Source: Limnomonas spitsbergensis (taxonomy: Eukaryota; Chlorophyta; Chlorophyceae; Chlamydomonadales). From it: 64,000 bases of DNA. Location of the stretch: NCBI GenBank assembly GCA_037349105.1, contig JAYJMM010000123.1:8060001-8124000 (forward strand). Reading direction: 5' to 3'. The notes beneath the pieces are model-generated. The model did not search any database and was not told the origin of the DNA. It saw only the letters and a program-made list of their open reading frames with translations. Positions within the stretch are counted from its first letter, which is position 1. Every line of letters starts with the position of its first letter. This document shows, piece by piece, positions 482 through 46,100 of this stretch. A program made the translations under genes and the position numbers.

Positions 482-635
482 CTGATAGCATCCACTCCGC
501 CCAGCGTCCAAGCCGGTTGCCGAGGTCGAGCATGCTGGCCGGCCTGTTGCCGGGCGCAGGGTATCGTGAGTGCACCGGCACCAGCATTTCTATCAGGTCG
601 CCTTGGCGCCAGCGTGGACCTCCCTGGTTCAGCCG
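482..635 (-). CDS. Internal exon of an unrecognised protein (partial gene)
   Basis: I do not recognise the family. A 154-base stretch of high GC is open on the minus strand. It is bounded by an acceptor-like site (GACGCAG before CGGCTG, at 636) and a donor-like site (CAG followed by GTGTGA, at 481). It encodes about 51 residues beginning RLNQGGPRWRQGD and including VPVHSRYPAPGNRP and LDLGNRLGRWAEW, with a composition typical of a conserved globular protein. It starts in phase 0 and ends in phase 1. Downstream exons would lie beyond the left edge of the window; upstream exons were not found in 636-3495. The opposite strand is also open here, so strand choice rests on the splice sites and residue composition. 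Confidence 0.45.
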
Positions 636-2941
636 CTGCGTCAAGTTGACACTTAACGCAAGGGAGACAGGGAGGCACTCAGGAGCCGGACTGGGGACCG
701 GGCGAGGCATAGGAGGGCATGAGTGAGGGGGGCACCGGAGGCGAGGGTATGTACAGAGACGATGGGTTAGGGCAGCACTTGACACGAGTAGTAGATCAGG
801 TGATGGACAGATCATGGATATGAGTGGCATATAGCCTGACTGAATAGAGACAGCAATGTATAATGGGTGTACATGTTTGGATGATGCGTGATTGGCACAT
901 CGCCTACATTGGTGCACGTATGCCATGGGTAAGTGGTACATGTTTGCATGATGCGTAATTGGTGCTTGGTATGCACATGATTGGTGTGTATTGAACAGCG
1001 ATACATTATTGGTATGAACATACAACTGCTGGTCCTGCCGCTGCTGTCATAGTGATGAACATTCAGAGTCAAACATCGTTGAAATTCGATATACGGCTGT
1101 CATATGCTAGCGCCTTACGCTTCAAGATCCAGTGCTCCAAAAAGCTCGAAGGAATGGCTTGGACCTGCGCACAGGTTACAGCAGGTAGCCAGTCACAGCT
1201 GCAGTTGGGATTCAAAGGGGAGCCAGAAATTTTGAAATTCCCCAGACCTATAGGGATGCTGTGAATGCCAGATCCACTCATGCACCCAAATTTGAACCAA
1301 GCTTGCAGGGGAGAAGCAACTGAGCAAGAATATAGAATGTGAGGCCTCAAGAGTGAATGTGTGACCTGGCGGAGCTAAAGCCTCGCCATTCAAAATCCAG
1401 ATCCTTTTCTTAGGTTTCTGATCTACATCCCATAGCCGTGCAGAGAAGAGTAGCGATGGATCAGAACGCAGACTGGCAGAAGCAGGACCTGATTGCGGTT
1501 CAAGAAGCAGTAGATGGGACATGTATCTCTGGGAGTCTGGGGTAGTTATTTCCGCATGTTTGGGGAGCCGAGCCAATCACTGCGTGAGATAACTCCGAAT
1601 ATGGACATACCTTGGCTGAACAAACTGTCCTTCAGTTGGTAAGGATCAACAAAGACCTCCCTCGGTAAAGCCTGGATTACAACAACCTGTGATGTGCAGG
1701 AAGAAAGAGGGACATTGATTGTCGTCTACCCCATCCATGATGGTTGCTTGTCTCAGGGGTCGAATTGACATGCCCTACATGGCTTTGGGCCTCACGGCAA
1801 GCACAGGGCTTGGAATATGTCAGGCTTGAAAATTCCTTCAAAACGCAGGTCAGGGTGGTAAGTTTCAGAGTTCCGCTGCATTCTGGCCTATGGGTTAGGA
1901 TGCAAGGAAGTATGCAAACTGCTGAGGTGCGGTAGAAGGCAATGAACATGCCTTGGGGGCAGAAGCAAAAGTACAGGAAGGAAGACATGTGTAGACCCAG
2001 ATCCAATGAAGTCAGATAGTCATGCACTTGCGAGACTAGGGCAGCCATGTGCCGACTAGTGGGGTTCTTGCCTTGTCTACTGCATGGCAGCTGGAAGCAG
2101 CGATGAGGTGGCGCAGGGAGAAGCGGTAGTGAAGCAGGCGGTGTGCTCCAGTCCTGAAGATAATACATTTTGGAGCGCACCTTCAGGGGCTGTTGCAGTG
2201 AGGAATGATAGAATGAGGCCATGCCATGGAGCAAAGTTCAGGTTCCTCACCCAGACAGTTCGTAATCGCCTGCTAGAGTGCGCTCGTCCTTCTGCAGGCG
2301 TCCACTCGGTGACTCATACGAGGAATGCGTATACGCGAGTAGGTAGCACACAATGATTGAGGCACAAAATAATCCATCCGCGATTGAGTGCATCGAGGGC
2401 TCCCTCAACTTTCCAAATTTCGTCGTTTTCATGCAATGCGGACGGATAATATACCAGGGATCATCGTTTCCTCACGGTATCTTAATACCTGTGACGCATG
2501 CGTGGGGAGTTTGCATCTGAAATTGGAAATGTGGGAGCTGACGGAAATCTACGAACCCCACTCACTGACTGCAGCACAGGCCTACCTGTGGTGAAGCTTT
2601 GCCATGGGACGGATCCCTTGAATCCCCCCCCCCATGCCTTTCCAAGCATTTCTGGGCAAGAACTGCCAGTTTGTGCCTGCGCTTGAAAGAATGATACTAT
2701 CACAAGGAGAGGCCAGCCAGGTTCATTCAACAGGCCCTGCCAGAGAGGAGTAGTAATGCAGGACGAGATGTGCCTTTTGAGCTCAGGGCACTTATGTAGC
2801 TGTCCTGCCTTGGCCACAGTTGAGCAGGATTCGGACTTGGGATCCTTTAGCGCACAAGCAGTAATCCTCATGCAGGAACCAGGTTCATGCCAGGACATCA
2901 ACGAGCTGCACCAGAATATAAGCCAGACACATGCTACAAAC

Positions 2942-43100: not shown

Positions 43101-46100
43101 AGGGGGGTCCCTGGTTTTCGCTCGCTGTCCTAGCGTTCACGGGTACATGTCTCATGCATCAAATGTGATGCTCTGATGGAATGTAAAAACTTCACACACA
43201 AAAACATCACGAGTGGTGCTGATCGCCGATTCAAACCCGTGTTGCCTCACACATCCAGCCAAACCTTCGTCTGCTTTCAACATCCGCCTTCTGTCACTCT
43301 CTTCATTACTACCTTGCATCACACTTACATTTGCTGCGTAGGTTGTGTCGCGGGGCGGCACACCCATCATGTGAACATTCATCCATTGAAAGTGATCAGC
43401 TAGATTAATGAAGCTGATTGCTGATTCAAACCTGTCTTGCCTCACACTTCCAGCCAAACCCTGCTTTCTGATTATGTCGCACTTGCATTTGCTGCGTAGG
43501 CTGTGTCGCGGGGCTTCACACCCATCATGACACCTGATCTGGTGAAGGAGGCGATTCTGGAGAAGTGTGGCTTCCAGCCTAGAGGGAACAACACCCAGGT
43601 TGGCGCACCCCTGGGTTAAGGGTTTAGGGATTCAACACCCAGGTGCGCGCACCTCTGGGTTAAGGGTTCAGGGTTTAGGGGTACAACACCCAGGTACGTG
43701 CATGTCTGGCAGGCCTCACTTCCCACAAACCCACTCTCAAGTCAAGCTGAGAAGACGTGCAAGCTGAACCCAAGCTATGTGCGGATGGTCTCACCCCTCC
43801 AGTGTGTCTGTCTCATGGATCGAATTAATGATGTGTTAGTACAACGCACCTAGGCCTCAGGGTATCTTTTTTCTCGGCGGGGACGTTTTGCGCAGCAGGC
43901 CCTGCTCTTAGGCGTCCGGCTTCTTGCCAATCCAGCTTCTGTCCCTATTGCCCCAAGTGATGGCGTCCCGTCAGGCCATGCAAGGGTGTCTGGTGCTCAA
44001 ACAGCTCTCACTCATAACTGCACGACATTGAGCAGCGTCATGTCAGGACGGGACGCACTTGCTGGTCTTGCTCCCTTGTCTGTGGCTATAATGTGCTCAC
44101 CAAACTGACTTTGACAGGCCGCTGGGCAGCTAATACTGTTATCATAGGGAGCAAGCATTGTGCAGCTAACGGACGCAGGCCCAAGCAGCAGGGCATGCTG
44201 CATCAGACCTCCTCGGCAGTAGGCCGTGATGTCACTGAATTAGAGCACCACTGCACCCTTTTTTTCTTTTTTGTGTGACTCAGCTACACGTCAGCTACAC
44301 TCTGGCCCTTGGCCGGAGGGCCCATCCGTGGCCAGCCTTGCTACTTTGGCCAAGAGTTTCAGTCCGACCCAAGTTTGGTCTCAATCGGGCTTCTCGCGGC
44401 CGTGGGATGGCCTGCCGAAGGTGGACATGTAGCCGGGAAAAGAGGCAGTGGGGAGCACCCTGACGATGACGTGGGTGTGCCTGGGCTTCTTTTAAGCACA
44501 CGGCACCTTTGACGACTGGGGGCAGTTACAAGCCACTAGTGGCAATTCGAAATGCCCGTTTATACTCTGTAAAGATTCTCCCCTCAAGCAGAATATGAGG
44601 GCTTATCAAAGAGGAGGGTGTTTAAGGTCCCGTGTGCTCTGCTGTAAAACGTTGAATATGGGAGGGGGTCAAAGTGCAAGAATATCGCAATGTAAAGAGC
44701 CCCGCCTCGCTCAGTGCTGTCAGTGTCACCTCAACATATCCTCAAGATTCGATACACTGTACATTACATAGATGTACAGCATGTACATCTGTACAGCATT
44801 ATGACTCAGTAGCATGGAAGGGCAGTACAAGTCCCACCCACCTCCCTGATCCAAGCCCCCTCCTCCCTGTCAATGACATTATACCTCTGGGCCCTGCTCA
44901 AAATAGGCTCGTCCGTGGGCGCCTAACTGTCCTGTTGGGAGAAAAGAAAAGGAACTGAAGGTAAGAGGCAAAGAAGGAGATGAACACAAAGGAGAACGAA
45001 ATACCCCCTCCTTGCAGGTGTACTCCGTTGAGGGCTCCAACCTCTGCTTGACGGGCACTGCTGAGGTACCGCTGGGTGGGCTGTACATGGACAAGCTGCT
45101 GAACGAGGCGGACCTGCCCATCAAGATGGCGGCACACGGCCACTGCTTCCGCACAGAGGCTGGCGCATCGGGGGCAGCGGGCAAGGGCCTTTACCGCGTG
45201 CATCAGTTTAGTAAGGTGCGCTGATTGCGGGGGGAGCAAGCATGCGGCCCTCTCGTTTGAGTGAAAGAAAGGAAGGAATTACGGCCCGCAGCCAGGGGAA
45301 ATATCAGTCATTCGCGCTTACTAGGAAAACCGGACAAGAACAGAACTTGCCTCCGGCCCAAAGGAAAAAAAAACGGAGAGGACAAAAAGTCCAGCTGACT
45401 CTTTGAGATCCTAGACCTATTGTCTGACCCTGCCGCAAGGGCCTGAGGGTTTAGAAGGCAGTGTGTATGGTCCAAGTCCGTGTCCACGCTGTTGCCATGG
45501 TCTGGTTTGAGTGGCGTGAGCTGTGAGGTGAACGGCTCCTAGAAGTGCTTTGTTTGTTGCAACCCTGTTGCAGAAAGCGTTGCTCTACAAATCCGGTGAG
45601 TAAAATCGCTGCCTTCTTTTTCGACTTGAATTGCAATCCATCGGCCTAAAGACGCACAGAGGAGTGCATCACACGTACCGGTACTCAAGCCATTGATGGT
45701 CAATCGTTAAAGAATGGCCAAAGCCTCTGACAAAGCCCATTTTAGTTTAGAAAGCATGATGATCAAACGCATCACACTTTTGCTCGATGCTGCTACTCAG
45801 GTGGAGATGTTTGTGATCAGCACTCCGGAGCAGAGCGATCGGCTTCACCAGGAGCTGATCGACCTCGAGACAGAGATGTTCACAGAGTTGGGTCTTCACT
45901 TTAAGGCAAGTCTTCTGATCAATGTTTGTTCCAGTGCTTTGAAGCTTCCGTGCAGCTGCACCCTGCCCTGCGGCTCTTGGGCCTGGTGGAGCTACCCCTG
46001 TTGCTTGGGCCACTGGAGGTAGGCATGCTTTGGCAGCAGCAGGCCCAGTGGCAACCTACCAAAGGCTTATGATGAACGCTACAATGTACCTTTGTGTCTC

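Follow-up and report, generated by a model that had tools for sequence, protein, structure and literature searches.

In the green algae Chlamydomonas reinhardtii and Volvox carteri, the density of tandem repeats is reported to be highest in introns, with more repeats near intron-exon junctions (PMC3887541), and tandem duplication is a known route of intron gain (PMC4974935). Core-Reinhardtinia have median intron lengths of 198-343 bp, and the authors of that report regard the driver of intron length as likely ancient and the advantage of long introns as unknown (PMC8226300). Here we analyze a window of 64,000 nucleotides from the chlamydomonadalean alga Limnomonas spitsbergensis (contig JAYJMM010000123.1; G000:C123:8060001-8124000 of a 260-Mb genome), in which an earlier note had described copies of exon-edge sequence within introns, together with introns from further loci of the same genome. 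We favor, with a probability of roughly 60%, the hypothesis that local duplications with units of ~60-170 nt prefer splice junctions and lengthen the introns of this alga.

Eleven sites listed as exon edges in the window, all outside the TRMT11 gene, were re-aligned, and each was compared with 200 dinucleotide shuffles of its edge segment. The best copy outscores all 200 shuffles at 11/11 sites, which bears out the copies originally listed, a few secondary copies being weak (table 1). The sample beyond these sites was built from 35 introns in matches to Pfam PF00118, defined by continuity of hidden Markov model (HMM) coordinates and GT/AG borders, and from the predictions of a small exon HMM, for which these and 7 SerRS and 4 CHLP introns served as the training set. 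When one locus at a time was left out, this model recovered 38/46 introns exactly, 42/46 donors and 44/46 acceptors. The first working set of 146 introns was then joined by 29 kinesin introns outside the training set (7 kinesin regions, 22 of the introns Pfam-supported), giving 175 introns, 68 of them protein-supported. Four loci with little predicted coding sequence, L048 and three of the five random ones (L050-L052), were dropped before counting, as were predicted introns with flanking exons scoring <8 bits. Within the window, predictions were kept for SerRS, CHLP, three PPP4R4-type introns and the plus strand above 40000, the remainder being discarded as likely antisense noise. The donor consensus of the sampled introns is AAG/GTGAGT (the slash marks the junction), and GC donors occur in 7/175; a SerRS intron has a GC donor (window 45906).

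The placement of repeats with longer units in these introns departs from random expectation. An ungapped search at every shift of 12-450 nt, for which 56 kb of shuffled sequence gave 0 segments, was compared with random placement of the same repeats in the intron plus an exon margin of 50 or 100 nt. Among repeats with units of at least 60 nt, 55/83 cross an exon edge, against 18.4 or 27.2 expected with the 50- and 100-nt margins, respectively, and none of 5000 random placements reached this number. The excess is likewise present among protein-supported introns (26/36 crossing, 7.7-11.8 expected) and in the held-out kinesins (14/22, 2.8-5.0 expected), persists without L040, L041, L046, L047 and L057 (25/46, 12.8 expected), and edge crossings exceed expectation in 16/19 loci, the window included. 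Edge-crossing repeats of this size occur in 15/22 of the fetched loci used. Unit length matters: repeats with units <60 nt, which serve as an internal control, are placed near randomly (12/49 crossing, 7.0-11.8 expected), whereas crossings number 14/29 at 60-99 nt (5.7-8.7 expected), 36/42 at 100-170 nt (10.7-15.5 expected) and 5/12 above 170 nt (2.0-3.0 expected). An earlier event count by Blastn self-comparison (51/83 crossing, 21.5 expected) was replaced, as no unit <58 nt appeared in it; such self-comparison probably drops hits near the diagonal.

A second, gapped method applied an identical search to edges and interior points, paired in 145 introns, and is blind to distances below ~80 nt. 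It finds copies at 100-170 nt for 10.0% of edges and 3.7% of interior points (confidence interval of the difference, 3.3-9.4 points); rates at 60-100 and 170-600 nt are near equal, so the excess is confined to 100-170 nt. Distances of 100-145 nt account for 25/42 of the gapped edge copies.

In all, 71/350 exon edges of the 175 introns lie within a local repeat, and a test for junction copies is positive at 48/294. In the first 146 introns, such copies were found at 16/122 donor and 17/122 acceptor edges and in 0/246 shuffles. The earlier note had proposed exon-internal segments as the comparison, and the edges do exceed them in this set (2/351 donor-side and 10/363 acceptor-side internal points, none beyond 80 nt); this outcome is trivial and uninformative, because duplications within coding sequence are purged by selection. 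Random placement across intron and exon margin is the fairer control, and the edge enrichment holds there as well. With an equal search space of 200 nt, coverage is 0/160 at 80 nt inside the exon, 28/208 at the edge, ~8% at intron depths of 220-460 nt and 27% at depths of more than 500 nt, attained by long introns only. Per-intron mean coverage in the first 146 introns is 8.7% for interior points and 14.2% for edges. Starts (0/6) and stops (0/7) of coding sequences served as a further control, in numbers too few to tell.

Several observations weigh against a preference for splice junctions. The window alone has no excess (2/11 crossing, 2.0 expected). Pooled over the first 146 introns, coverage is no lower at interior points (0.156-0.160) than at edges (0.131-0.139), because large arrays sit in long introns. 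With clustering by locus, the per-intron difference in equal search space, taken over all distances, is borderline (intervals of -0.022 to 0.102, -0.001 to 0.116 and -0.002 to 0.133 at search lengths of 120, 200 and 300 nt). The gapped method gives a pooled interior rate of 7.0% at 100-170 nt, and 51/118 interior distances fall in this range, compared with 29/42 at edges. Both the 60-nt split and the 100-170-nt class were chosen after seeing the data; the kinesins are the only held-out set, and for the 60-nt split only. Introns outside the 68 protein-supported ones depend on the small HMM with its 38/46 exact predictions, and that model agreed with 14/22 of the Pfam-supported kinesin introns, the conflicting predictions having been replaced by the protein-supported ones. 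Finally, the placement of full-length tandem repeats is close to random (13/48 crossing, 8.1-12.9 expected), and only 8/24 spacers between copies show homology to the sequence lying past the copy; some events are therefore perhaps not simple tandem duplications.

The copies decay neutrally. Mismatches between copy and exon number 53/524, 57/524 and 107/518 at the three codon positions (10, 11 and 21%), where positions 1 and 2 measure mainly drift of the copy and position 3 that of copy and exon together. The copied GT is kept in 16/21 and the copied AG in 23/30, close to the ~81% that a drift of 10% per base predicts. Neither codon-position mismatches nor GT/AG loss reveal constraint on the copies as alternative exons or maintained splice sites, and the copies look like neither. 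Drift per lineage is 10.5% for edge copies (110/1048, codon positions 1 and 2) and ~8.7% for interior ones (329/1888, halved), which makes edge copies ~1.2x older. Crossing repeats make up 19.3% of the 105 kb of intron and interior repeats 13.4%. Median length is 700 nt in the 59 introns that contain a crossing repeat, falling to 365 nt once the repeat is subtracted, and 401.5 nt in the other 116; the former are thus ~300 nt longer, about the length of the repeat. The interpretation given in the earlier note is upheld in part. Such duplication does recur at both kinds of splice site across unrelated genes and accompanies intron lengthening, and the word genome-wide has the 175 sampled introns as its basis.

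What the sample shows is that the copies exist and are placed locally, that they decay neutrally, that edges carry more of them than random placement gives, and that the introns concerned are longer. From this we propose that local duplications of ~60-170 nt recur in introns and preferentially span exon-intron junctions, each copying ~10-95 nt of exon along with ~20-130 nt of the adjoining intron. Splicing would continue at the exon-proximal site, leaving the protein unchanged, and the distal copy would turn intronic, drift neutrally and eventually lose its splice site, so that repeated rounds could add ~300 nt to an intron. The edge excess would then reflect where duplications arise and not which of them survive. 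Their cause may be fill-in repair at staggered breaks or paired nicks, or template switching at replication forks, and the junction preference could stem from the G-richness of intron starts, the C-richness of intron ends, nucleosomes positioned over exons, or R-loops formed during transcription. Replication slippage, break repair and R-loops, the causes raised in the earlier note, are all candidates. At 100-170 nt, 24 edge duplications lie at acceptors and 10 at donors. Only tentatively do we extend this to the view that splice junctions are a mutational target in this lineage and that nucleosome-scale duplications (100-170 nt) with exon-intron borders at their centre, coupled to splicing or transcription, not transposons or slippage, are a major source of long introns in chlamydomonadalean algae.

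The strongest alternative, which we consider rather unlikely, is that local duplication is unbiased and that survivorship creates the pattern: exonic duplications would be purged, and those straddling an edge would persist because their exon half can neither drift nor be deleted. The disappearance of exon-internal matches beyond ~80 nt from the edge, the slightly greater age of edge copies and the near-random placement of short-unit and full-length tandem repeats are all consistent with this. However, simulations of detection and survival with drift, indels and constrained exons give edges an advantage of just 1.07-1.5x, whereas the observed excess in odds is ~4 (100-nt margin) to 7 (50-nt margin) and the excess in rate by the gapped method is 2.7x. 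Among repeats with an identity of at least 0.92 and units of at least 60 nt, 13/16 lie at edges against 4.2-5.7 expected, in alignments that are mostly short and include the frozen exon. Roughly a two- to threefold edge excess is left unexplained by survivorship.

The structure of the repeats bears on a second alternative, in which the overhang of a staggered break is duplicated and telomere-like filler is inserted during repair, giving the order segment-filler-segment. Alignments are often shorter than the copy distance, and an ungapped alignment spans the full length in 13/67 crossing and 35/65 interior events. TTTAGGG-like spacers alternate with copies at the SerRS donor, at the PPP4R4-type donor 14700 and in the array at 1-470, and fill-in of 3' overhangs by CST-Pol alpha is reported to give small tandem duplications (PMC8355091). 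Nevertheless, telomere-like sequence is present in just 4/24 spacers, compared with 31/720 near-edge control segments (score at least 22), and stricter scores leave 3/24 against 25/720 or 1/24 against 13/720, a surplus that is suggestive only, given how often such motifs occur close to intron ends in general. Simulated true tandem duplications with indels align over their full length in only about 25-39% of cases, and because small indels alone break most of these alignments, we regard repair with filler as improbable.

Telomere-like 10-mers are over-represented in these introns. In the fetched loci and the window introns, GGGTTTAGGG and GGGTTAAGGG each occur 20 times, with ~0.44 each expected on both strands from simple base composition; TTTTAGGG, the telomere unit of C. 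reinhardtii (PMC6549138), is not over-represented (5 against 5.7 expected). Examples lie at window 43613-43690, 13210-13225 and 14675-14690. The motifs are polar: G-strand repeats lie within 100 nt of donors in 10/13 cases, whereas of the 38 C-strand cases 18 lie near acceptors and 3 near donors. The C-strand type may supply a branch site together with a pyrimidine tract.

Selection for spare or decoy splice sites that aid exon definition, one of the causes suggested by the earlier note, would enrich edges and might account for the scarcity of units <60 nt at acceptors (2/36 events, against 9/27 at donors), as if a nearby decoy AG were harmful. We judge it still less probable, given that the copies drift neutrally and lose GT and AG at the expected rate. 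The same note had also pointed to models in which introns arise or lengthen by tandem duplication of AGGT-containing exon sequence. Despite the AG/GT context at many edges, we dismiss intron birth by this route (the Rogers/Hellsten model) as very improbable, since donor and acceptor junctions are alike in only 1/165 introns.

The exon edges examined in the window are collected in table 1. Those of SerRS (protein homology and exon reading) are well founded, as are those of CHLP (continuous reading, and one exon matching Pfam GGR_cat); those of the PPP4R4-type gene, with weak similarity to HEAT and PP2A-A-scaffold sequences only, and of the EEP gene, with a Pfam match below threshold only, are plausible and not proven.

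Table 1. Exon edges and their copies in the window, with alignment scores of the best copy and the maximum over shuffles (TRF, Tandem Repeats Finder).
Feature	Position	Strand	Basis, identity and structure	Score (shuffle maximum)
PPP4R4-type acceptor junction, edge ~6131	6106..6163	-	original of four to five copies; 48/56 identical to 6343-6398, 52/61 to 6260-6322	66 (29)
Intronic array of copies of this acceptor junction (6260, 6343, 6429, 6505 weak, 6583)	6260..6639	-	TRF unit of 84 nt at 6266-6490	fifth copy, at 6505: 29 (29)
PPP4R4-type donor junction, edge ~7259	7225..7280	-	edge-segment alignment and self-BLAST	71 (22)
Copy of donor 7259	7129..7185	-	49/56 identical; self-BLAST 7087-7185 vs 7183-7280, distance 96, aligned 99, a clean tandem duplication	
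PPP4R4-type donor junction, edge ~10752	10730..10787	-	alignment; HMM intron start 10751	66 (24)
Three copies of donor 10752 (10269-10304, 10512-10569, 10607-10686)	10269..10686	-		
PPP4R4-type donor, edge ~14700, and copy 14643-14670	14643..14712	-	25/28 identical; telomere-like CCAACCCTAAACCCTG between donor and copy	41 (24)
EEP-type donor, edge ~18880, and copy, 27-nt unit	18831..18884	-	25/27; TRF 18826-18885	44 (32)
EEP-type acceptor, edge ~24931, and two weaker copies (25000-25034, 25089-25112)	24918..25112	-	30/35, 20/24	39 (24); second copy 28
EEP-type donor, edge ~25699, and 88-nt copy 25557-25644	25557..25757	-	77/87 identical	112 (29)
CHLP acceptor of exon 3 (31326), with a diverged copy at 31405-31429	31302..31429	-	22/25 identical	35 (22)
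SerRS exon-5 acceptor junction, exon start 43500	43477..43529	+	exon reading and alignment	81 (28)
Copy of SerRS exon-5 acceptor junction	43319..43371	+	48/53 identical to 43477-43529	
SerRS exon-5 donor junction, exon end 43598	43589..43628	+	exon reading and alignment	60 and 29 (25)
Two copies of SerRS exon-5 donor (43633-43672, 43679-43695)	43633..43695	+	telomere-like spacers between	
Array of a 30-40-nt element alternating with telomere-like TTTAGGGTTAAGGG; putative exon side	1..470	+	TRF units 58-180	38 (25)

SerRS illustrates how the copies relate to the protein. The acceptor copy of exon 5 lies 158 nt upstream, and translation from it would give a 14-residue reading if splicing occurred there; beyond the true donor, translation runs into a stop. 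As judged from such readings, the spliced site of each set would be the exon-proximal one, which alone is predicted to yield the protein. That copies always lie on the intron side, as had been claimed, follows from selection, because an exon-side copy would change the protein; exon-side copies were themselves not searched for. The acceptor copy (43342) reads VVSRG where the exon (43500-43508) reads AVSRG and C. eustigma VVARG, and the copy may retain an older codon. The closest match to SerRS assembled from its exons is a Chlamydomonas eustigma protein, 80% identical. In the single case searched against the genome, the 201-nt EEP stretch 25557..25757 matched only itself.

Tandem arrays with a period of at least 20 (TRF) cover 11.0% of the window plus 14 loci, and 12.5% if the window is taken alone. 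Among them are a 78-nt array at window 21038-23151 (27 copies, 98% matches), with long open stretches on both strands, and a 30-nt array of 34 copies at 13352-14364, the first 349 nt of which matched only the same array in a DNA search. A dispersed family of ~130-180 nt, possibly a short transposable element, is found at four places (38977-39116, 41937-42130, 44261-44443 and 50568-50751).

The new and surprising part of these results is the excess over intron-interior placement. No description of an exon-edge duplication excess in introns appeared among the literature matches listed, which comprise titles and the starts of abstracts, with most subscription papers outside coverage. A repeat that multiplies splice donors has reportedly been described in a single human transcript, 6-16/IFI6, whereas the copies described here affect many genes and both types of site, with diverged units of 60-170 nt. 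They provide a naturally occurring series of splice-site duplicates in which the exon is held by selection and the copy is neutral, and this series allows tests of how the spliceosome chooses between true and fossil sites and of a possible role of splicing or transcription in promoting local duplication of DNA. The nearest precedent is the survey of tandem repeats in green algae and plants (G3 2013, PMC3887541), where repeats in C. reinhardtii and V. carteri are likewise more frequent near intron-exon junctions. Its units are of 1-50 bp, whereas those enriched here are of at least 60 nt and contain exon sequence; exon-edge copies go unmentioned in the portion available, and no word beginning with "splice" occurs in its main text. 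In a potato case of intron gain, as probably here, a segment bearing a splice site is duplicated in tandem, the unit joining the 3' side of an intron to the 5' side of the next exon (PMC4974935); there a new intron arises, whereas here existing introns lengthen, with the signature of birth in 1/165. CST-Pol alpha activity at staggered breaks is a possible source of small tandem duplications, and the abstract draws no link to splice junctions (PMC8355091). For the long introns of core-Reinhardtinia, the available text describes no repeat-based mode of growth and calls the driver of long volvocalean introns unresolved (PMC8226300); in the introns sampled here, ~19% of the DNA lies in edge-crossing repeats.

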